64,000 bases of DNA, from positions 1 to 64,000 of the forward strand of contig JAGLOJ010000082.1 of NCBI GenBank assembly GCA_023139045.1. The letters run 5' to 3'. The stretch is from Candidatus Sabulitectum sp. (GTDB lineage: Bacteria > Fermentibacterota > Fermentibacteria > Fermentibacterales > JCC-6). Within the stretch, counting starts at the first letter, position 1. Each line of letters begins with the position of its first letter. This document shows, in pieces, positions 14,658 through 25,405 of the stretch. The translations under genes and the position numbers were made by a program. The notes beneath the pieces were generated by a model. It was not told where the DNA came from. It did no database searches and saw only the letters and a list, made by a program, of their open reading frames with translations.

Positions 14658-17090
14658 TTGCCTGAACAGCATACTGACCGAGCCAGGAAAGCTCTTATTG
14701 AAGCAAGGGCGGAAGCTGCCCGTTCCGGCAGAAGAGAGATTGGCAGTGAGTTTATTCTTTATGCCATTCTCAGTATTGACGGTTCCGGGGCCGCTGCGCT
14801 TCTGAGGAGTCTTAACATAAAGACCGGGGAGATGCGTTCTCAACTCAGAGCAAATCTGCGTCACGGACCTGTTTCCAGCAACTCGGTCGACAGAACAAAT
14901 CTAACCTGGAGCCATCGTTCAAGATCCATACTTGCTGACGCAAAGGTACAGGCGGCAAAACTGAATGCAGTTTCCATTTCAACCGAACACCTTCTTCTTG
15001 CCCTGTCCAGGATTGACAGTGAATCATCTGCGATGCTCTGGCAGTACGGGGTTAACTACGATAAGCTCTTTGACACCCTTAAGGCATCGGGAGACAAACG
15101 ACCCTCCGAGCAGGAAAAAGTGACTTCAGCTCTGGATTATTTCTGCAGAGACCTTACTCTTCTGGGCTCAGAGAGCGGGCTCGACCCGGTGATCGGCAGA
15201 TCCGCGGAAATAGACAGGATTGTTCAGGTTCTGTGCCGAAGAAAAAAGTCCAATCCTGTGTTGATCGGAGAACCGGGAGTTGGAAAAACGGCAATAGTTG
15301 AGGGGCTTGCTCTCAGAATACTTTCCGGCAGGGTTCCTCTACCCCTTTATGGGAAAAGGATAATGGCTCTGGATATGGCGTCCATCCTTGCAGGCACAAA
15401 GTACCGGGGACAATTCGAAGAACGACTGAAAATTCTCCTTCGAGAGATCAAGGAAGACGGGAATGTTATTCTCTTCATTGATGAGATCCACTCAATAGTT
15501 GGTGCCGGAGGGGCAGAGGGCGCAATTGATGCCGCCAATCTGCTGAAGCCGGCTCTTGCCAGGGGTGAATTCCAATGCATTGGTGCCACTACTCTTGATG
15601 AGTACAGAAAAAGGATAGAAAAAGATGGGGCTCTTGAGCGAAGATTCCAGCCTGTTCCCGTTGATCCACCTTCCGTAGAACTCACAGTGGAGATACTTGA
15701 GGGATTGAAAGACAGGTATCAGAGACATCACAATGCAATTTTCCCTCCGGAAAGCCTCAAGAACTGTGCAATTCTGGCTCACAGGTACATCAGTGGAAGA
15801 CGCCTGCCTGATAAGGCTATTGATGTTATGGATGAATCCGGAGCCAGAGCACACGCCAGAGCATCAAGCCCGCCTGAATCACTGATTATACTTCATGACA
15901 GGCTGTTGGATATGAGGCATAAGGTGGATGTTGCAGGAGACAAACGAAACCTTGGAGAGGTTACCAGACTTACCGAGGAAGTGCTCCGACTGGAGAAAGC
16001 ACTCGAGGATTCCCGCAACCACTGGATCGACAGTCTGCCACCTGTGGAAATTTCACAGGATGATGTGGCAGCAGTTGTTGCAGAGATGACAGGAATTCCC
16101 ATCAGCAGGGTAGGTGAAAGCGAGACTGCCAGGCTTTCCGATCTTGAGGATCGCATGGCAAAGAGCATAATCGGCCAGGCACCTGCGATCAAGCACATTG
16201 CAAATGCTATCAGACGGGGACGTGTGGGACTCAGAAGCAACAGAAGACCAACCGGCTGTTTCCTCTTCCTTGGACCATCCGGCGTTGGAAAGACTGAGAC
16301 TGCGAGAATTCTGGCAGAACAGGTATTCGGAGACAAGAATGCTCTGATCCGTATTGACATGTCAGAATACAGAGAGGGTTTCTCCGGATCAAGACTGGTT
16401 GGTGCCCCCCCGGGATATGTGGGTTATGATGACGGCGGGCAGCTCACGGAGAAGGTTCGTAGAAGACCCTACTCTGTTGTACTCCTTGATGAAATTGAAA
16501 AGGCCCATGCTGATGTTTACAACATGCTCCTGCAGGTGATGGATTACGGAACCATGACTGACAGTTACGGGAGGAAAATTGATTTCAGTAACACCATTAT
16601 TATCATGACCGGTAATCTTTCACAACGCAGTATCAGCAGCAGCGGGACTGTTGGATTCCTGAGAGAAAATTCTGATTCAGAGGCGGATGCCATTTTGAAT
16701 GCTGCCAGATCACTTTTCCCTCCCGAGTTTATGAATCGGCTTGATAGTGTGATAGTTTATAATTCCTTGAGTAGAGACGATATCAGAAAAATTGTAGAAA
16801 TGCAGCTTACCGAGATTCTCGAAAGGCTGCTTGAACTGGATATTGAACTTGTGATCGAAAACGAGGCTCTTGATCTTCTTACAGAAAGCGGATTCAGCCG
16901 CGAGGCAGGAGCCAGGCATCTGAGAAGGACAATCCAGAGACTTCTTGAAGATCCTCTTACCGATTTACTTGTTTCCGGGGAACTTTCCGGAGGCAGAAAA
17001 GTCAGCGCCAGGCGAAACGGTGATGTTCTTTCATTTACCTCTGAGAACGAGGCGAAGGTCAACTGTTCCGCTGTGGAGGTGAATGTATGA
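14658..17090 (+). CDS. clpC: ClpC/ClpA-type AAA+ ATPase
   Basis: TTG start; two Walker A sites ([18 protein letters not shown]), [33 protein letters not shown]. Confidence 0.9.
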
Positions 17091-19324
17091 AATTAACTAT
17101 TTTTCTGTTTTTTTTACTGGCCGGTGTGGCATTTTCCGTTCCCGTTTCCAGTGTAACAGTGGAAGGTAACACTTACGTCTCGGATTCATTGATAGTCCGT
17201 ACACTTGGTATTTTCACCGGAAGTGTTTTCTATCCATCGACTCTTTCACAGGGGGTCAGGGATCTGTTCAGTCTGGGCTACTTTACCGACATCGAGGTTC
17301 TTGCGGACTCAACAGGCGGTAATGCTGATTTTACAATAATTGTAAGCGAGAATCCTATCCTGTCCAGCCTTGAAATAGAAAATTCGGGGTGTTTAAAGGA
17401 GGGTGATCTGCTTGACACTCTGGCGATCTTTCCCGGTCAGACAGTCTCCATCAATGACATCGACCGGGCAGTTGATTTGATTCTGAGCATGTATGCTGAC
17501 GATAACAGACATCTTGCTGAGGTGACTCATCACTGGGATGAATCAGATCCTGATGGCCGTCGGGTACTTGTGTTTGTCTGTGAAGAGGGACCGGATGTCC
17601 GGGTGGGTGAGATAGCCTTCTCCGGGAACTCTGCCTTCTCAGATGAAGATCTCCGCAGTGAGATGAAGACAAAGCAGGACAGCTTCTGGAGAAGCGGCAA
17701 GCTGAAGCCTCTGCAGTTTGAAGAGGATCTGGGTCGAATTGCAGGATATTACCACAACCATGGTTATCCCGATGCCATGATTACAGGTACTGACAGGTAT
17801 CTCCTTTCCGACAATGAAGATCACTTCCACATTGATATTTCTGTATTTGAAGGGCCTTACAAGGTTTTCGGAGGTGTTTCCGTAGGTGGAAATACAGAGC
17901 TGTCCGATTCTCTGCTTTTATCCTTCAGCGAGATGAAGCAAGGTGAAGCGTACTCTATGGAGGATATAGACAAGACCCTTGAAACCTTCTATTCCGCTTA
18001 CCAGGATCGTGGATATTTCTATGCAGGTGTATCTCCTGCAATGGAGCCGTCTGTGGAAGCCGACTCAATAGTCAATATCCATTTTGCAGTTCGGGAGGGG
18101 GAGAGGGCTCACATTCGTGAGGTGGAGATTATAGGCAACACCCGCACTTATGATAATGTCATCCGCAGACAGCTTACAGTGGTTCCCGGGGACCTCTTCA
18201 GAAGATCTGCTCTGATGCGTTCATTGAGAAATGTCTACTACCTTAACTACTTCAACGATGTTATTCCTGATTTTCGTGCCATTGAGGGGTCTCCGGATGT
18301 GGATATGGTTCTTGAGGTTGACGAGAAAACCACTGGAAAATTTGGAATAGGTGCTAATTACAGTGCTACAGATGGATTCAGCGGCTATTTAGAAGTGGCT
18401 GAAACAAACTTTTTCGGACGGGGGCAGAATCTCGGTGCAACTTATGAATTTTCAAAAACAATTCAGAACATAAAACTCAGTTTTACAGAGCCCTGGTTCC
18501 GCGACACTCCGCTGACTCTTGGTGGTGAGCTGTATCACACAACCAGCAACTACAGTGAATACGGCAGAAAACGCACTGGTGGCTCTATTGTTGTAGGTCG
18601 TCCTCTGCCGTGGATTGATTTCACCTCAGCCAGTATCAGATACACTCTTGAAAAGGTCAATGTGTTTGACATAACTGATGATCCCGACAGCTACTACTAC
18701 ATCCTCAACGATACAGACTGGCCCCGTTGGGACAGTTCAGTAAGACTGTCTTTTACCCGTGACAGCCAGGACAGAAGAGTATTCCCCGGAGAAGGATCAA
18801 AAAATACTGTAAGTCTTGATCTTACCGGAGGCTTTTTAGGCGGAGACATTGGGTTTCAGAAATATCTCTTCGATTCCACATGGCATGTTCCGGTGTGGTG
18901 GAAATTTTTCCTTACTCTCAGAGGCAGAATGGGAACGATTTCCGGTTTCGGAGGAGAAACCCCGCCGGTATACGAATTATTCCAGCTTGGTGGAACCGGA
19001 TTCTACGGCGTCAGGGGTTATGGCAGCAGAGAGATCAATGCAGCTGACGGATATGAAACTGTTGGTGGTAGAACAATGCTTATTCTCAGTGCGGAGTACA
19101 GATTCAGAATAATTGATCAGCTGCAGCTTGCGGTATTCACAGATGCCGGCAACACCTGGGAGGGCTGGTCCGACATGGATCTCTCATCCCTGAACCGGGG
19201 AGCCGGCCTGGGTATCAGGGTTGAAATTCCCATGCTTGGTGTTATGGGACTGGATTATGCATATGGCTTTGAAGGGCCGGAACCCGGCTGGGAACCACAT
19301 TTCCAGATGGGAGCGTCTTTCTGA
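17087..19324 (+). CDS. bamA: Outer membrane assembly factor BamA
   Basis: N-terminal signal, successive POTRA-like repeats, C-terminal Omp85 barrel (GGTGFYGVRGYGSREI, terminal FQMGASF). Confidence 0.92.
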   Translation: MKLTIFLFFLLAGVAFSVPVSSVTVEGNTYVSDSLIVRTLGIFTGSVFYPSTLSQGVRDLFSLGYFTDIEVLADSTGGNADFTIIVSENPILSSLEIENSGCLKEGDLLDTLAIFPGQTVSINDIDRAVDLILSMYADDNRHLAEVTHHWDESDPDGRRVLVFVCEEGPDVRVGEIAFSGNSAFSDEDLRSEMKTKQDSFWRSGKLKPLQFEEDLGRIAGYYHNHGYPDAMITGTDRYLLSDNEDHFHIDISVFEGPYKVFGGVSVGGNTELSDSLLLSFSEMKQGEAYSMEDIDKTLETFYSAYQDRGYFYAGVSPAMEPSVEADSIVNIHFAVREGERAHIREVEIIGNTRTYDNVIRRQLTVVPGDLFRRSALMRSLRNVYYLNYFNDVIPDFRAIEGSPDVDMVLEVDEKTTGKFGIGANYSATDGFSGYLEVAETNFFGRGQNLGATYEFSKTIQNIKLSFTEPWFRDTPLTLGGELYHTTSNYSEYGRKRTGGSIVVGRPLPWIDFTSASIRYTLEKVNVFDITDDPDSYYYILNDTDWPRWDSSVRLSFTRDSQDRRVFPGEGSKNTVSLDLTGGFLGGDIGFQKYLFDSTWHVPVWWKFFLTLRGRMGTISGFGGETPPVYELFQLGGTGFYGVRGYGSREINAADGYETVGGRTMLILSAEYRFRIIDQLQLAVFTDAGNTWEGWSDMDLSSLNRGAGLGIRVEIPMLGVMGLDYAYGFEGPEPGWEPHFQMGASF

Positions 19325-19335
19325 TTGGAGTAAAC

Positions 19336-19833
19336 ATGAAATTGCTGGCCTTTCTGGTTCTTCCAGCTTTATTGCTGGGGCAGACTATTGCCGTTTTTGA
19401 TTCCGACCAGGTGTTTGAATCCCTCGGGGAGGTTACTGATGCACGAGAGCTTCTTGAGACCGAGATGGACGAATGGGAGCTCCATGTGGATTCTCTTCAG
19501 GAGGAAATCGATCTTCTTGAGGAGGATCTTTCCAGAACCCTTATGATGAGTCCTGAGAGAAGACAGGAGAAGGAAGCCCTTCTTGAGGAAAAGAAAATAC
19601 AGATAGAATCATACCTTTCCAGCATCTTCGGCCCCGAAGGCCTTATGGAAAGGCGCAATGAGGAGCTGGTTAATCCCATTATTGCTGCTATCAACGAGGC
19701 TGTAATGGACATTGCCAGCGAGGAGGGCATACAGCTTGTTCTGGATGCCTCCGCAGGTCAGGTTGTATATGCAGAGGCTTCTGTGGACATTACAGACAAG
19801 GTGATTGACAGGGTAATGAGTGGCAATGACTGA
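19336..19833 (+). CDS. OmpH/Skp-family periplasmic chaperone
   Basis: Signal peptide, coiled-coil helical core, C-terminal [18 protein letters not shown]; between bamA and lpxD. Confidence 0.85.
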
Positions 19834-20863
19834 TTCGTTTACGCTAGAAGAAATTTCTGACCACATTGATGGGGAAATTCTCTCAGGTGACCCTGATACT
19901 GTGATCACTGGCGTCTCGGCTATTCAGGATGCCGGTCCCGCTGATATCTGCTACTGCGGCAGCGCGAAGTACGCCGGGTATCTGGGTAGTACCAATGCTG
20001 TCGCTGTTATTGTTTCCAATCCGGTTGAAACTGCAGCTGAATGTGTTCTTCTTGTTGATGACGCCTACGATGGTTTCAGAAAGGTACTTCACCTCTTTAA
20101 GCCTGATCGTTCCTCCGGCTTCAGCCGCCTGCATTCTTCAGCGGTCATTCATCCTGCTTCGAATATCGGAGAGAATGTTCAAATTGGTCCATCTGTTGTT
20201 ATTGACAGAGACTGCGTCGTGGGAGACAACTGCAGAATTGGTTCCGGGTCGGTGCTGGGCCCCGGTGTTATTCTTGGGAACGATTGTCTTATTTACCCCT
20301 CCGTGACTCTTCTTGCGGGAACTTTCATTGGAAACAATGTCATCATTCATTCCGGTACGGTTACCGGAAGTGACGGTTTCGGTTTCGTTCCTGCTGCCGG
20401 AGGCGAACACAAAAAAATTCCGCAGAACGGAAATGTTGTTATCGGTAACAATGTTGAAATAGGAGCCAACTGCACTATAGACAGAGCTGTTACCGGTAGT
20501 ACAAAAATAGGAGATCACACAAAGCTGGACAATCTCATCCAGGTCGCTCATAATGTATGCATAGGTAAAGGGTGTTTTATTGCCGCCCAGACTGGAATTG
20601 CTGGAAGTACGGTAATCGGTAACGGTGTTGTTTTCGGCGGACAGGTGGGTGTCGGTGGACATATTGTAATAAATGACGGTGCTGTTATTGCGGCCAAATC
20701 CGGTGTTACAAAGGATGTGGATTCCGGTGTTACTGTTTCGGGTAATCCGGCAAGACCTCATATGGAGACTCTCAGGCTTGGCGCCGCAGTATCAAGGCTA
20801 CCGAAGATTATTGAGCTGGTTAAAGAATTGAATGCCGGTAAAAAAAGAGAAACTGAGGGCTGA
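19820..20863 (+). CDS. lpxD: UDP-3-O-acylglucosamine N-acyltransferase
   Basis: Left-handed beta-helix hexapeptides; [34 protein letters not shown]. Confidence 0.95.
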
Positions 20864-22185
20864 TGAATCGTTTTCAAACAACTATCAAAGAGCAGGTCTC
20901 TTATACAGGTTGCGGTTTGCATCTGGGTAAAGAGTCCACCATTACGTTTAAACCAGCGCCTGCTGACACCGGTTATGTTTTTGTAAGAACCGATGTTGAA
21001 CAGCGTCCGACGATCAAAGTATTGCCGGAGAATGTGCGGATGGTTGAAGAACAGGCCAGACGAACTACTCTTGGGGAAAATTACTACGAAGTTCATACTG
21101 TTGAGCATGTCCTGAGTGCCCTTTACGGTCTGGAAATTGATAATGCTATCATTGAAATAAGTTCTGATGAGCCACCGGAGCCTGCAGACGGGTCAGTCCG
21201 ATCCTATGTGGAAGTGCTGATGGAAGCGGGTGTTGAAACCCTTCATGGGCATCCCAGTAAGCTTTTTGTAATTACCGAGCCTGTGAGCCTGGAGTACTAC
21301 GGGGCAAGTCTTACTGTTGTTCCCTACGACGGTCTCAAGATCAGTTTCACCCTTGATTACGATCACCCTCATATTGGAACCCAGTACATCAGTCTTGAGA
21401 TTACAAGGGACAGTTTTATTAATGAAATCGCTCCCGCCAGAACTTTCTGCCTCTACCAGGATGTGAAAATCCTTCAAGAAAAGGGTTTGATTAAAGGCGG
21501 AACTCTTGAGAATGCTGTTGTGATTGGTGATGACGGGGTAATGAATGACAGCCCGCTTCGCTTTCCCGATGAACTGGTGAGACACAAGGTTCTTGACCTT
21601 ATCGGTGACATGGCTCTTCTTGGAATAAGGCTTCAGGGACATGTTATCGCGGCAAAAAGCGGCCATGCCTCTAATGTTCAGTTTGTGAAAAAAATCATGA
21701 AAGTTTATGCGGGAAAAATAAAAACTTCCAGGGCTGATCTTGCCGAAAGGCAATGGGACATCTCCGATGTGATGGATCTTCTTCCGCATCGCTATCCCTT
21801 TCTGCTGGTGGACAGAGTGCTGGAGATTGAGCCTGAGAAGAGCATCGTTGCTATAAAGAATGTCACCATTAATGAGCCTTTTTTTCAGGGACACTTCCCC
21901 GGCAGCCCCATCATGCCCGGAGTTCTGGTCATCGAGGCCATGGCTCAGGCAGGAGGGCTGATGCTTTTCGATTCCGTTGAAGATCCAGGCAGATGGCTGG
22001 TTCTTTTTGGTGGAATTGACAGAGTGAGGTTCAGAAAACCCATTCTGCCCGGTGATCAGATCCGCTTTGAACTTGAGCTTATCAGCAAGCGCGGGCGTAT
22101 GTGGAAGATGCGCGGAGTGGCAAAAGTTGATAACAGGGTGGCAGTAGAGGCTGAGCTTACCGCGATGCTGGTGGAGAAGAAATGA
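20863..22185 (+). CDS. lpxC-fabZ: Bifunctional LpxC-FabZ (UDP-3-O-acyl-GlcNAc deacetylase / 3-hydroxyacyl-ACP dehydratase)
   Basis: LpxC part (TVEHVLSALYGL, RTFCLYQDV) followed in frame by FabZ part (LLPHRYPFLLVDRVLEIE...GHFPGSPIMPGVLVIEAMAQAGG). Confidence 0.95.
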   Translation: MNRFQTTIKEQVSYTGCGLHLGKESTITFKPAPADTGYVFVRTDVEQRPTIKVLPENVRMVEEQARRTTLGENYYEVHTVEHVLSALYGLEIDNAIIEISSDEPPEPADGSVRSYVEVLMEAGVETLHGHPSKLFVITEPVSLEYYGASLTVVPYDGLKISFTLDYDHPHIGTQYISLEITRDSFINEIAPARTFCLYQDVKILQEKGLIKGGTLENAVVIGDDGVMNDSPLRFPDELVRHKVLDLIGDMALLGIRLQGHVIAAKSGHASNVQFVKKIMKVYAGKIKTSRADLAERQWDISDVMDLLPHRYPFLLVDRVLEIEPEKSIVAIKNVTINEPFFQGHFPGSPIMPGVLVIEAMAQAGGLMLFDSVEDPGRWLVLFGGIDRVRFRKPILPGDQIRFELELISKRGRMWKMRGVAKVDNRVAVEAELTAMLVEKK

Positions 22186-22943
22186 TACACTCTACGGCTA
22201 TTGTTCAGTGTGAAGCACCAGAGTCTGTGAAAATCGGACCTTATGCAGTTGTTGGCCCTGAGGTCATACTGGGCCAACGGGTTGTTATTGATGCTCATGC
22301 TGTGGTAACTGGAATTACCAGCCTGGCGGATGATGTGAAGGTTGGACCCGGTGCAGTAATAGGTACACCGCCACAGGATCTGAAATTTGCAGGCGAAAGA
22401 ACAGCTCTTGAAATTGGTGCAAGAACGGTAATCCGGGAGATGGCGAACATTAACTGCGGTACCAGTGCTACAGGAAAAACTGTAATCGGTGCAGATTGTT
22501 TTCTGATGGCTTTCAGCCATGTTGCTCACGACTGCATTATTGGTGATGGTGTTATTCTTGCCAATTCTGTGAACCTTGCAGGTCATGTGGAAATCGGTAC
22601 AAAGGCAATTATTGGTGGTGTTGTGCCGGTTCACCAGTTCACAAGAATCGGCGAATACTCAATGATTGGCGGTGGTTTCAGGGTATCCAGAGATGTAACT
22701 CCTTTCACTCTGGCCGGTGGTGAGCCCCTGCGAATGATCGGTGTGAACAAACTGGGGCTCAGGCGCAACGGCTTTTCCAACGAGGAAATAGCTTTTGCTG
22801 TAGACTCTTTTCGTTACTTCTTCAAGAACTCTGACACAATGGCCAGTAAGGTCGCAGCTGTTCTTTCAAGTGAAACTGATGATTCACTCAAGAGAAGAAT
22901 GGCTGAATTCATTTCCACCTCCTCGAGAGGGGTTACCATCTGA
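22182..22943 (+). CDS. lpxA: Acyl-ACP--UDP-N-acetylglucosamine O-acyltransferase
   Basis: Hexapeptide repeats, PPQDLKFAGE, RECANINRGT-like block (REMANINCGT), MAFSHVAHDC. Confidence 0.93.
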   Translation: MIHSTAIVQCEAPESVKIGPYAVVGPEVILGQRVVIDAHAVVTGITSLADDVKVGPGAVIGTPPQDLKFAGERTALEIGARTVIREMANINCGTSATGKTVIGADCFLMAFSHVAHDCIIGDGVILANSVNLAGHVEIGTKAIIGGVVPVHQFTRIGEYSMIGGGFRVSRDVTPFTLAGGEPLRMIGVNKLGLRRNGFSNEEIAFAVDSFRYFFKNSDTMASKVAAVLSSETDDSLKRRMAEFISTSSRGVTI

Positions 22944-23383
22944 GCCAGATCGCTTTTCTTCTGCTTTTCCTCTGCCGACAGCCGGGAGTTGCGGACTCTA
23001 CTATGATTGAGTACAGGAATCCTCAGGGAGCGATGCTCAGAAGTCTTGTGCTGCCCGGGTGGGGGCAGTTCTACAACGATAAGCCTGTAAAAGGGCTGCT
23101 TTACGGTACGTTGGAGCTGGGGCTGCTGGGGCTTGTTTTTTATGAGAACAGCAAGGCAGAGCACGCCAGAGAGATGTACGCGGAAACGGGACTGGCTTCC
23201 TGGCAGAACAATTACGATACACACAGCAGTTTGCGGCGGACTTTCATCTGGTATACTGCCGGGGCATGGGTGGTTGGATTGCTTGATGCCTATGTTGACG
23301 CTTATCTTTTCAGTTTTGAAGCAGAGAATGCCGTATTTGATGGAGATGTGGGTTTCACCCTTGGAGCGGTGATCAACTTCTGA
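22940..23383 (+). CDS. DUF5683-like small membrane/secreted protein, probable CTG start
   Basis: ORF MIEYRNPQGAMLRSLVLPGWGQFYNDKPVKGLLYGTLE extends upstream in frame through LSQIAFLLLFLCRQPGVADST (signal peptide) to CTG 22940, preceded by GAGAGGGG. Confidence 0.6.
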   Translation: MSQIAFLLLFLCRQPGVADSTMIEYRNPQGAMLRSLVLPGWGQFYNDKPVKGLLYGTLELGLLGLVFYENSKAEHAREMYAETGLASWQNNYDTHSSLRRTFIWYTAGAWVVGLLDAYVDAYLFSFEAENAVFDGDVGFTLGAVINF

Positions 23384-23385
23384 CT

Positions 23386-23637
23386 AGGAGCGTGACCGAG
23401 AATGCAGCATCGTCATAAAAGCCGCACGGTCGGCTATAATCCGTACTGTCGCCGGGACGCGTGCTGGTATTGGCTTTTTTGCTTTTCTCGTAGATTATTG
23501 TCAAATAGTTCCACTATTTTCCGCAAATCGCCAAGAATTCTATCTAGGCCGTGGGGCTTTTCTGAACCATGCTTACGCAGGGACGCGCCCAGAAACAGGT
23601 ACTGTTGCTTTCAACGCCCATTGCCAGTCACGCTCCT
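23386..23637. mobile_element. Candidate miniature inverted-repeat element / IS remnant
   Basis: Perfect 11 bp terminal inverted repeats AGGAGCGTGAC (23386-23396) and GTCACGCTCCT (23627-23637), 252 bp overall, wholly intergenic, with a minus-strand open frame of 58 codons inside. Confidence 0.5.
23434..23610 (-). pseudogene. Open frame inside the 252 bp element, possible 3' end of a mobile-element gene
   Basis: Minus strand after a TGA: KQQYLFLGASLRKHGSEKPHGLDRILGDLRKIVELFDNNLREKQKSQYQHASRRQYGL*. Protein-like composition; no family assigned. Confidence 0.35.
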
Positions 23638-23648
23638 GGGGGAATGAA

Positions 23649-24248
23649 ATGATCTTTCACCTTGTATACTTTTTGACAGCGGGATTGGCCGCTTCAGAGC
23701 CGGAGCTTCTTGAAAAAGCCGTACAGGGTGATAAAGAGGCATTTGGGGAGATAGTCAGAATGTATGAGAAACGGGTTTTCAGGGTGGCAAGACGAATGTG
23801 CAACTGTGATGATGATGCCTGGGATATTACACAGGAAGCGTTCATAAAGGCCATGAAGGCCATGCATAACTTCAATCCCGAGTATCGTTTCTTTACATGG
23901 ATGTACAGAATCGTAACCAACACTGCAATCAACCTGACCCGTTCCCGAAGCAGGCGTGCCGAGGTAGAGTTTGATGAGGGATATGGCGGAGGCGGCCAGA
24001 CTGCCACTGCAGACACTGCCATTCAGGAAACCAACAGAGACCTTCTGGTCACAGCGGTGCAAAAGGCTGTCGAACGGCTGTCTCCAGCCCTGCGATCTGT
24101 ATTTGTTCTCCGGGTCGATCAGGAACTCAGTTATGATGAAATCGCAGAAGCTCTTGATATTGCCACAGGTACTGTGATGTCCAGATTGAACAGGGCACGA
24201 AGTTCTGTAAAGACATTTGTTGTCAGTGAGCTTGGAGGTGAGCTTTGA
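23649..24248 (+). CDS. RNA polymerase sigma factor, ECF/RpoE-like (sigma-70 family)
   Basis: DDAWDITQEAFIKAMKAMHNF...FFTWMYRIVTNTAINLTRSRSRR; sigma4 LSYDEIAEALDIATGTVMSRLNRARSSVK. N-terminal start uncertain. Confidence 0.9.
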   Translation: MIFHLVYFLTAGLAASEPELLEKAVQGDKEAFGEIVRMYEKRVFRVARRMCNCDDDAWDITQEAFIKAMKAMHNFNPEYRFFTWMYRIVTNTAINLTRSRSRRAEVEFDEGYGGGGQTATADTAIQETNRDLLVTAVQKAVERLSPALRSVFVLRVDQELSYDEIAEALDIATGTVMSRLNRARSSVKTFVVSELGGEL

Positions 24249-25405
24249 CCTGTCCAGACAAGAACACCATTATGATGTGGTTTGACGGTGAACTCACCGG
24301 TTCTGAAGCAGACAGCATCTCTGATCATATCAAAAATTGCGGTAGTTGCAGGGGCTTGATATCAGCTCAGAAGCAGATGGAATCAGTCTGGCGGGATGCC
24401 TGGGTTGATCCTGGTGATTCGGGTTTCAAAACCATGCGCAGGAAGCTCAAACCGGAGATCCCATGGTGGCGTGCACAACGAACATGGTTCATTGCTGCCG
24501 CTCTCTGTGCGGCATACATAGGTGTGAAAATATTCTATCTGGATGGTTCCGTAGCATCTCTTTCCGATATAGCAGTAGAGGAGACATCCACCACTGTTCA
24601 TATTACAGAAGTTTCAGATCTTCCTCAGGAAGCTCCCAGGGAAGATATGGAAGAGATGATTGAAAGTGAGTGTGAAGAGCAGGAAATAGAGACTTCGCAG
24701 GATGAGCTGATTTCAGGTCAGTCGGAAATTCCTGAGATTCTGGAAGAGTTATCAATAGATTTGGCGCTATCCGCATCAGACTGTGAATCAGCCGGGGAAG
24801 ACCCGGGTATGGAGATCCTTGAGGAAGGTGATTACACGATTGGTTATTCCGGGACGGCATCAAATCAGCGCGACCGGGGACTATCTGATGTTCAGGAGGA
24901 AGCAGAAATGGTTGAGGAAGATTTTCCGGAAGGCATGGAATTATATAGAAGCGTGAGTTCCTCTTCAACGGAATCCGCGGGTTTCGGCATGGTTGCTGGA
25001 ACTTTATCCGGGGGGACTGGTGGTGGCGGTTCTACACCTGATTCAGACGGTTTGTCTACTTCAGGCGACACAGATAATTTTTGCGATGACTCAATTGATG
25101 ATGTTCAGAGTGTATATCCCGCACAAATTGAACAGCTGGCCGGCATGCCGGTGTGCGAAGGTTACAGCATCTCAATTACGCTGGAATCAAAAGAAACGAT
25201 TCATGTTCAGAGACATCAGTGGGATGCTCTTTTCTCACTGATAGACACTCTTCAGGCCGAGAATTGTTACTCTGCCGGGGAATCGCTTGTTCTCGGTGTC
25301 AGTATTGAGGGAATTCTTTCCGGACATGATTCTCTCTCCGGTACTGTAATAGAGCTTCCTGAAGCAGGTTACGGCAACTGCGCAGTTACCGTTCTCTTCT
25401 TCTGA
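24245..25405 (+). CDS. Zinc-finger anti-sigma factor with long acidic/Gly-rich extracytoplasmic domain
   Basis: HIKNCGSCRG (ZAS Hx3CxxC) motif, one TM segment (WFIAAALCAAYIGVKIFYL), overlap with sigma gene. Confidence 0.8.
   Translation: MTCPDKNTIMMWFDGELTGSEADSISDHIKNCGSCRGLISAQKQMESVWRDAWVDPGDSGFKTMRRKLKPEIPWWRAQRTWFIAAALCAAYIGVKIFYLDGSVASLSDIAVEETSTTVHITEVSDLPQEAPREDMEEMIESECEEQEIETSQDELISGQSEIPEILEELSIDLALSASDCESAGEDPGMEILEEGDYTIGYSGTASNQRDRGLSDVQEEAEMVEEDFPEGMELYRSVSSSSTESAGFGMVAGTLSGGTGGGGSTPDSDGLSTSGDTDNFCDDSIDDVQSVYPAQIEQLAGMPVCEGYSISITLESKETIHVQRHQWDALFSLIDTLQAENCYSAGESLVLGVSIEGILSGHDSLSGTVIELPEAGYGNCAVTVLFF

Follow-up and report, generated by a model that had tools for sequence, protein, structure and literature searches.

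The spacer between a DUF5683 gene and the gene of an ECF-type sigma factor measures 265 nt in the window (the whole stretch of DNA analysed here, 64,000 nt), and all except 13 nt of it is a 252-bp sequence with inverted-repeat ends. A preliminary description, made from the sequence alone, suggested that this sequence could be a MITE or an IS remnant, and the question is which of these, if any, it is. The sequence is very probably an insertion of a non-autonomous, clade-specific mobile hairpin element of uncultured Fermentibacterota, a reading that implies no specific enzyme. The element has a core of 162/163 bp with ends of about 19 bp, forms one long imperfect hairpin, is dispersed and has precise empty sites in relatives. 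It lacks coding capacity and a target-site duplication, and carries optional modules of about 45 bp at three positions as well as tandem arrays of them.

The insertion and its empty counterparts

The element lies near the end of what we take, by eye, to be an outer-membrane/lipid A cluster (17087–25405) with BamA-like, Skp-like, LpxD-like, LpxC-FabZ-like (a fusion) and LpxA-like reading frames. The genes at the end of the cluster, which encode the DUF5683 protein, the ECF sigma factor and a zf-HC2 protein, were checked against Pfam. The features of the locus are as follows.

23003–23383, plus strand: upstream gene, DUF5683, 126 aa (Pfam PF18935, E=1.5e-14)
23384–23385, no strand: left flank CT, the dinucleotide preferred before insertions (flank counts, 94 copies)
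23386–23637, no strand: complete element copy, a 162-bp hairpin core plus two 45-bp modules (multicopy; congeners uninterrupted at this site; core and modules separable)
23386–23404, plus strand: left terminal inverted repeat AGGAGCGTGACCGAGAATG, whose end AGGAGNNTGWCCGANAAT is kept in most of 94 copies
23619–23637, minus strand: right terminal inverted repeat, AGGAGCGTGACTGGCAATG on the minus strand, with its end conserved across 94 copies
23649–24248, plus strand: downstream gene, ECF-type sigma factor, 199 aa (Pfam Sigma70_r2, Sigma70_r4_2 and Sigma70_ECF)

The left end of the element is located 2 nt past the DUF5683 stop codon and the right end 11 nt ahead of the sigma ATG (23649), as described earlier, and the Pfam Sigma70_r2 and r4 domains bear out the assignment of the downstream gene to the ECF class. 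The perfect 11-bp ends, AGGAGCGTGAC at 23386–23396 and GTCACGCTCCT at 23627–23637, are also present as reported and form part of a longer inverted repeat that reaches 19 nt at 84% (23386–23404 and 23619–23637). Such ends prove little alone and are not above chance: the 64-kb window contains nine inverted repeats of 11 bp that are perfect and have spacers of up to 300 nt, and in seven of these the spacer is 30 nt or longer. The feature counts as real because it is multicopy, and not because its 11-bp ends are perfect.

The additional copies that the preliminary description proposed to look for exist: a DNA search of the same genome turned up partial copies at other places. A covariance model of the core has 28 matches at E<=1 in the window's own genome, a number in which some copies count twice, once per strand. 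At E<=1e-5 the matches fall into 13 distinct places. Among 60 genomes, this one included, the model finds matches in 26, and these all fall into two genera of a single family. Apart from the window's own genome they comprise 11 of the 12 congeners and, in a sister genus, 14 of 19 genomes (together 25 of 35 other genomes of the family). The model has no match in three further genera of this family or in the 24 genomes from outside the family. A scan for a subfamily pattern in one GTDB genome per species (257 Gb) returned 84 stretches, all from Fermentibacterota MAGs with titles naming Candidatus Aegiribacteria, Fermentibacteria or Fermentibacteraceae, and 0 matches were returned from phage, plasmid and viral-contig collections. 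By a simple ORF-based estimate, the copies sit mostly between co-directional genes; their neighbours are unrelated to one another, and their two orientations in tandem gene contexts are about equally frequent (28 vs 31). Only one of 94 copies sits inside a longer open frame, so that in-frame insertion of the kind known for Rickettsia palindromic elements was rejected.

About nine contigs of a single genome (G020) end 124–126 nt inside a copy (e.g. L227, L228, L231, L239, L240 and L243), and many element ends in this genome lie roughly 100–150 nt from contig ends. This suggests that near-identical copies break its short-read assembly, and copies are probably the reason for many of the contig breaks in these metagenome-assembled genomes. 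Breaks at copies would hide a parent element and lower the copy count.

The joined flanks of 15 copies, the window copy among them, were searched in 30 genomes of the family. The window locus is uninterrupted in at least ten congeners, with joined flanks 78–90% identical, so that the check for empty sites in relatives, as proposed earlier, gave a positive result. An example of the empty site is AACTTCTGACT/AAGGGAATGAAATG, and the junctions read gact/aagggaatg or similar, where the window holds 252 bp between CT and GG. The spacer from the DUF5683 stop to the sigma ATG is 13 nt in most congeners, compared to 265 nt with the element. Judging from these sites, the window insertion is specific to its species among the congeners. 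The sequence is thus neither single-copy nor conserved in place, the pattern that the preliminary description had named as contrary to a mobile element. Many other copies also have uninterrupted counterpart sites in sister species. The inserted unit is AGGAG...CTCCT; most junctions show neither gain nor loss of bases, and two junctions have 1–2 additional bases at the left end.

Core, modules and fold

Alignment of the copies separates the window element into three core segments and two modules.

23386–23441, no strand: left segment of the core, 56 nt, aligned with module-free copies
23442–23486, no strand: 45-bp module at site 1 (CGTACTGTCGCCGGGACGCG...GCTTTT), missing in the C79 copy and other 162-bp copies
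23487–23567, no strand: middle segment of the core, 81 nt, with the apical loop (from alignment and structure)
23568–23612, no strand: 45-bp module at site 2 (CATGCTTACGCAGGGACGCG...GCTTTC), missing in the closest copy, L113 (CTGAAC/AACGCC)
23613–23637, no strand: right segment of the core, 25 nt (from alignment)

The aligned copies share a core of 162 or 163 bp. That of the window copy is exactly 162 bp long and shares 96.3% identity with L113, which lacks modules and lies at a different site in a sister species. The site-1 module recurs at the same place in copies from G009, G003, G011 and G005, and the site-2 position has a degenerate module match also on contig C133 of the window's genome. 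The third module position is the apical loop, which is occupied on contigs C189, C36, C52 and C64 and in several relatives. Tandem module arrays are found on contigs C52 (period 47 bp) and C139 (period 50 bp) of the same genome, in which every match of the module pattern falls within an element carrying such arrays or modules. The number of modules per element is thus 0, 1, 2 or more. The words GGGACGCG and GTACTGT, correctly reported earlier as repeated, occur twice each and are the cores of the two 45-bp modules. The modules probably spread through recombination or slippage between copies. Short forms of about 40–90 bp (L364, L365, L226 and L030) keep both terminal repeats but lack most of the interior; they may be mobile or may be deletion remnants.

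Base-pair probabilities averaged over 79 copies give one imperfect hairpin that spans the whole core. This averaging was used in place of an RNAalifold consensus, which for the same 79-copy alignment is weak (10 pairs, -1.2 kcal/mol) since individual copies have mismatches at many of the pairs. At the 65 pairs of the hairpin, 84.8% of cells are paired vs 77.5% in shuffled alignments, a percentage biased upward by the derivation of the hairpin from the same related sequences. Two-sided changes affect 37 pairs and amount to 374 cells vs 133 in shuffles and at most 67 with partners slid; they are stronger evidence for the hairpin than the paired percentage, although kinship can inflate covariation. 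The local AGCCG-CACGGT-CGGCT hairpin pointed out in the preliminary description exists in the window copy but is not common to the copies, the C79 copy reading AGCTT...CGGCT, and in the consensus structure this stretch pairs with the other arm.

A cis-acting structured RNA of the sigma gene, i.e. a leader or terminator that does not move, would have a strong hairpin with compensatory changes and would sit, like this sequence, in the intergenic gap upstream of the gene. As the primary explanation it is refuted by the empty sites in congeners and is very improbable: copies lie beside unrelated genes in about equal orientations, Rfam has no family at E<=1 for positions 23200–23800, and a terminator scan of the locus gives a terminator-like match no better than shuffles. 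A secondary regulatory effect is possible. The covariation, proposed earlier as a sign of RNA rather than of a mobile element, is indeed present and fits selection on folded DNA or RNA without saying which, but mobility follows independently from the empty sites.

The element encodes no protein. Over 87 copies the three minus-strand frames are open 0, 1 and 0 times, not above shuffles, and apart from a subfamily effect open frames are about as frequent as after shuffling. The 58-aa minus-strand frame noticed earlier is open in the window copy and had suggested an IS remnant with the 3′ part of its gene preserved, presumably a transposase gene. This reading is the least probable of all: the frame has no Pfam match, it crosses both 45-bp modules, which other copies lack, and no minus-strand frame is conserved. 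Of the two original proposals, the MITE-like mobile insertion was upheld by the dispersed copies and the site empty in at least ten congeners, and the IS remnant, for which the searches gave no conserved frame, protein-family match or longer parent, was not.

Insertion preference and the search for a mobilising enzyme

The preliminary description saw no obvious target-site duplication, and none is visible at the window locus or detectable over 89 copies: 2-bp flank identity occurs 31 times vs 30.6 expected by shuffling, and left and right flanks at lengths 1 to 9 are no more alike than shuffles. The flanks of 94 copies are biased towards C then T on the left and A/G then G on the right, so that the preferred flanking dinucleotides are CT at the left end and AG at the right. 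The sequence adjoining copy L022 resembles the right flank of L149 (TGTAATTGAA...CAGTAACGCAGC), the two copies being from different genera, which hints at a second dispersed repeat or at a target common to both insertions.

These data bear directly on a conventional MITE, i.e. an internally deleted DDE-type IS with its transposase elsewhere in the genome and an eroded target-site duplication. The terminal inverted repeats, the length of about 162 bp, the missing ORF and the dispersed, intergenic copies agree with such an element. With GGAG...CTCC as the unit, the dinucleotide found most often at either end is TA, and copy L157 is compatible with a TA duplication. A TA target duplication of the IS630/ERIC-like type, attractive from the CTAG consensus, was nevertheless rejected on the strength of the shuffled flanks and because at several loci, L152, L140 and L142 among them, the empty site lacks the dinucleotide that a duplication requires. 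A missing duplication is unusual for DDE-mobilised MITEs, and an IS with these ends was not found in the genomes searched. A DDE origin is possible though doubtful. The full-length parent sought since the preliminary description did not turn up in the window's genome or in intact-end scans of G020, G004 and G011, all of them assemblies fragmented at element copies; in G020, the scans gave lone ends as well as short deletion forms, but a longer coding element was not among them.

The other candidate is a REPIN- or TIR-repeat-like element that moves as single-stranded hairpin DNA by means of a Y1 tyrosine transposase (RAYT/TIRYT). In its favour, the copies show no target-site duplication, CT precedes the insertion point, as at the sites cleaved by TnpAREP in vitro (PMC8266576), and the long hairpin has compensatory changes, as reported for REPINs (PMC3116915). 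However, the element has no GTAG/GTGG foot adjoining a short hairpin: its ends read AGGAG, and about 9 nt separate this motif from any local hairpin. Furthermore, Y1/RAYT genes do not track the element. As judged on incomplete MAGs, PF01797 (Y1) was not detected in five element-bearing genomes of the window genus, four with 10–14 element matches and one with 2, and several Y1-bearing genomes have no element. None of the Y1 loci examined has the element or a terminal inverted repeat on both sides, and they yielded only one lone 19-nt end and one chance neighbour. The lone end, on contig C157 of the window's genome, lies 860 bp upstream of an IS200-like gene and was discarded as a candidate since a search of the 3.35-kb locus revealed no second end.

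The RAYT gene of G020 (L368, G020:C73) ends exactly where a copy begins and was considered as the autonomous form. Its orthologs in G024, G027 and G029, however, have different terminal repeats on their flanks, GGGGTCGTATCTTGAATTTTGG, and the copy is thus taken as a mere insertion at that place. This gene belongs to a RAYT-like family (L368, L376, L377 and L379) that is TIRtron-like, with its own repeats GGGGTCGTATCTTGAATTTTGG/CCAAAATTCAAGATACGACCCC in G024, G027 and G029; in G020, an element copy occupies the place of the expected 3′ repeat. Mobilisation by a Y1 enzyme of this kind is thus also unlikely, to about the same degree as a DDE origin, and no transposase driving the element was found in the family genomes searched.

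The preferred reading, a non-autonomous mobile hairpin element, leaves the mechanism to be inferred from flank statistics. An enzyme acting in trans would recognise the terminal hairpin or the inverted repeats, and insertion would occur without target duplication and with a preference for sites behind CT. Our best guess is a single-strand process (HUH/Y1-like or other) on the folded strand; such a process would fit the hairpin, the preference for CT and the lack of a duplication. A more far-reaching proposal is that of a new class of hairpin elements that move as folded single-stranded DNA behind CT, without target duplication and by a non-RAYT enzyme, and that have been colonised by a second mobile module of about 45 bp at three positions; we consider it improbable as a whole.

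Related small repeats and effects on neighbouring genes

The element resembles several known systems in architecture only. BOX of Streptococcus pneumoniae (boxA-boxB(n)-boxC), like the element, has terminal modules around variable tandem modules, inverted-repeat ends and a stem-loop, and is a small interspersed repeat of one clade (PMC3049150). It belongs to a different phylum, target-site duplications are reported for it while none are detectable here, and the modules of the element are also found inside the arms at two further positions; the likeness is structural, and no homology is claimed. BrickBuilt of Porphyromonas gingivalis is a MITE with an internal minisatellite that is always intergenic and has a limited host range (PMC4596501). 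Unlike the 45–50-nt modules in a symmetrical hairpin core described here, it consists of 23-nt repeats with a distinct leader and tail and IS5-like terminal inverted repeats, and three of its four intact copies have variable target-site duplications.

ERIC/IRU, RUP and Correia/NEMIS are likewise dispersed palindromes of about 100–200 bp with terminal inverted repeats and long stem-loops, and the 107- and 155-bp forms of Correia differ by an internal segment (PMC2229807). They have 5′-TA-3′ ends and target-site duplications, whereas the element has no duplication and its flanks prefer CT/AG. REPINs and RAYT/TIRYT repeats share with it the inverted ends and the full-length hairpin with compensatory changes (PMC3116915, PMC8266576, PMC3733652), and TnpAREP cleaves at CT in vitro (PMC8266576), but the element lacks both their foot and a linked or co-distributed Y1 gene.

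Terminal inverted repeats and a short, non-coding, multicopy and mobile unit are features of classical MITEs that the element possesses; a target-site duplication is one that it does not, nor was the TIRtron arrangement, in which the same terminal repeat borders a TIRYT gene, seen at the Y1 loci examined. The element is a variant of the small non-autonomous bacterial elements and not a member of a named family; none is assigned because the duplication of classical MITEs and the foot and co-occurring RAYT of REPINs are missing.

Most of what is documented on small non-autonomous repeats comes from a few well-studied groups. In the open-access literature we found no report of such repeats for Fermentibacterota, and as far as that literature shows the element is previously undescribed, though an earlier description may exist elsewhere. 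The dozens of filled/empty site pairs among close species make its insertion specificity, the missing duplication and the gain and loss of modules directly testable.

Element copies alter the spacing ahead of genes such as that of the ECF sigma factor. The proposal that the element supplies the promoter or RBS context of this gene was not confirmed. The gene retains, beyond the end of the element, a modified version of its native purine-rich RBS region (A/G-AGGGAATGAAATG in relatives), and the sole sigma-70-like match around the element is on the strand opposite to the gene. The strong hairpin and the longer spacer make an effect on sigma expression plausible, and attenuation, mRNA destabilisation or altered coupling would be possible forms of it. 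An 81-aa plus-strand frame (23402–23647) starts with an ATG in the left end of the element, behind AGGAG, and runs through both modules to a TGA stop one nucleotide before the sigma ATG, which makes translational coupling to the sigma gene conceivable; this frame has no Pfam match and is not kept in other copies. At a different locus (L237, G020:C46, around position 464), a lone 35-nt end, AGGAGCCTGACCGACAATGAAACATTGG..., seems to provide a lipoprotein-like ORF with AGGAG and an in-frame ATG, which suggests that element ends can be co-opted as start regions.
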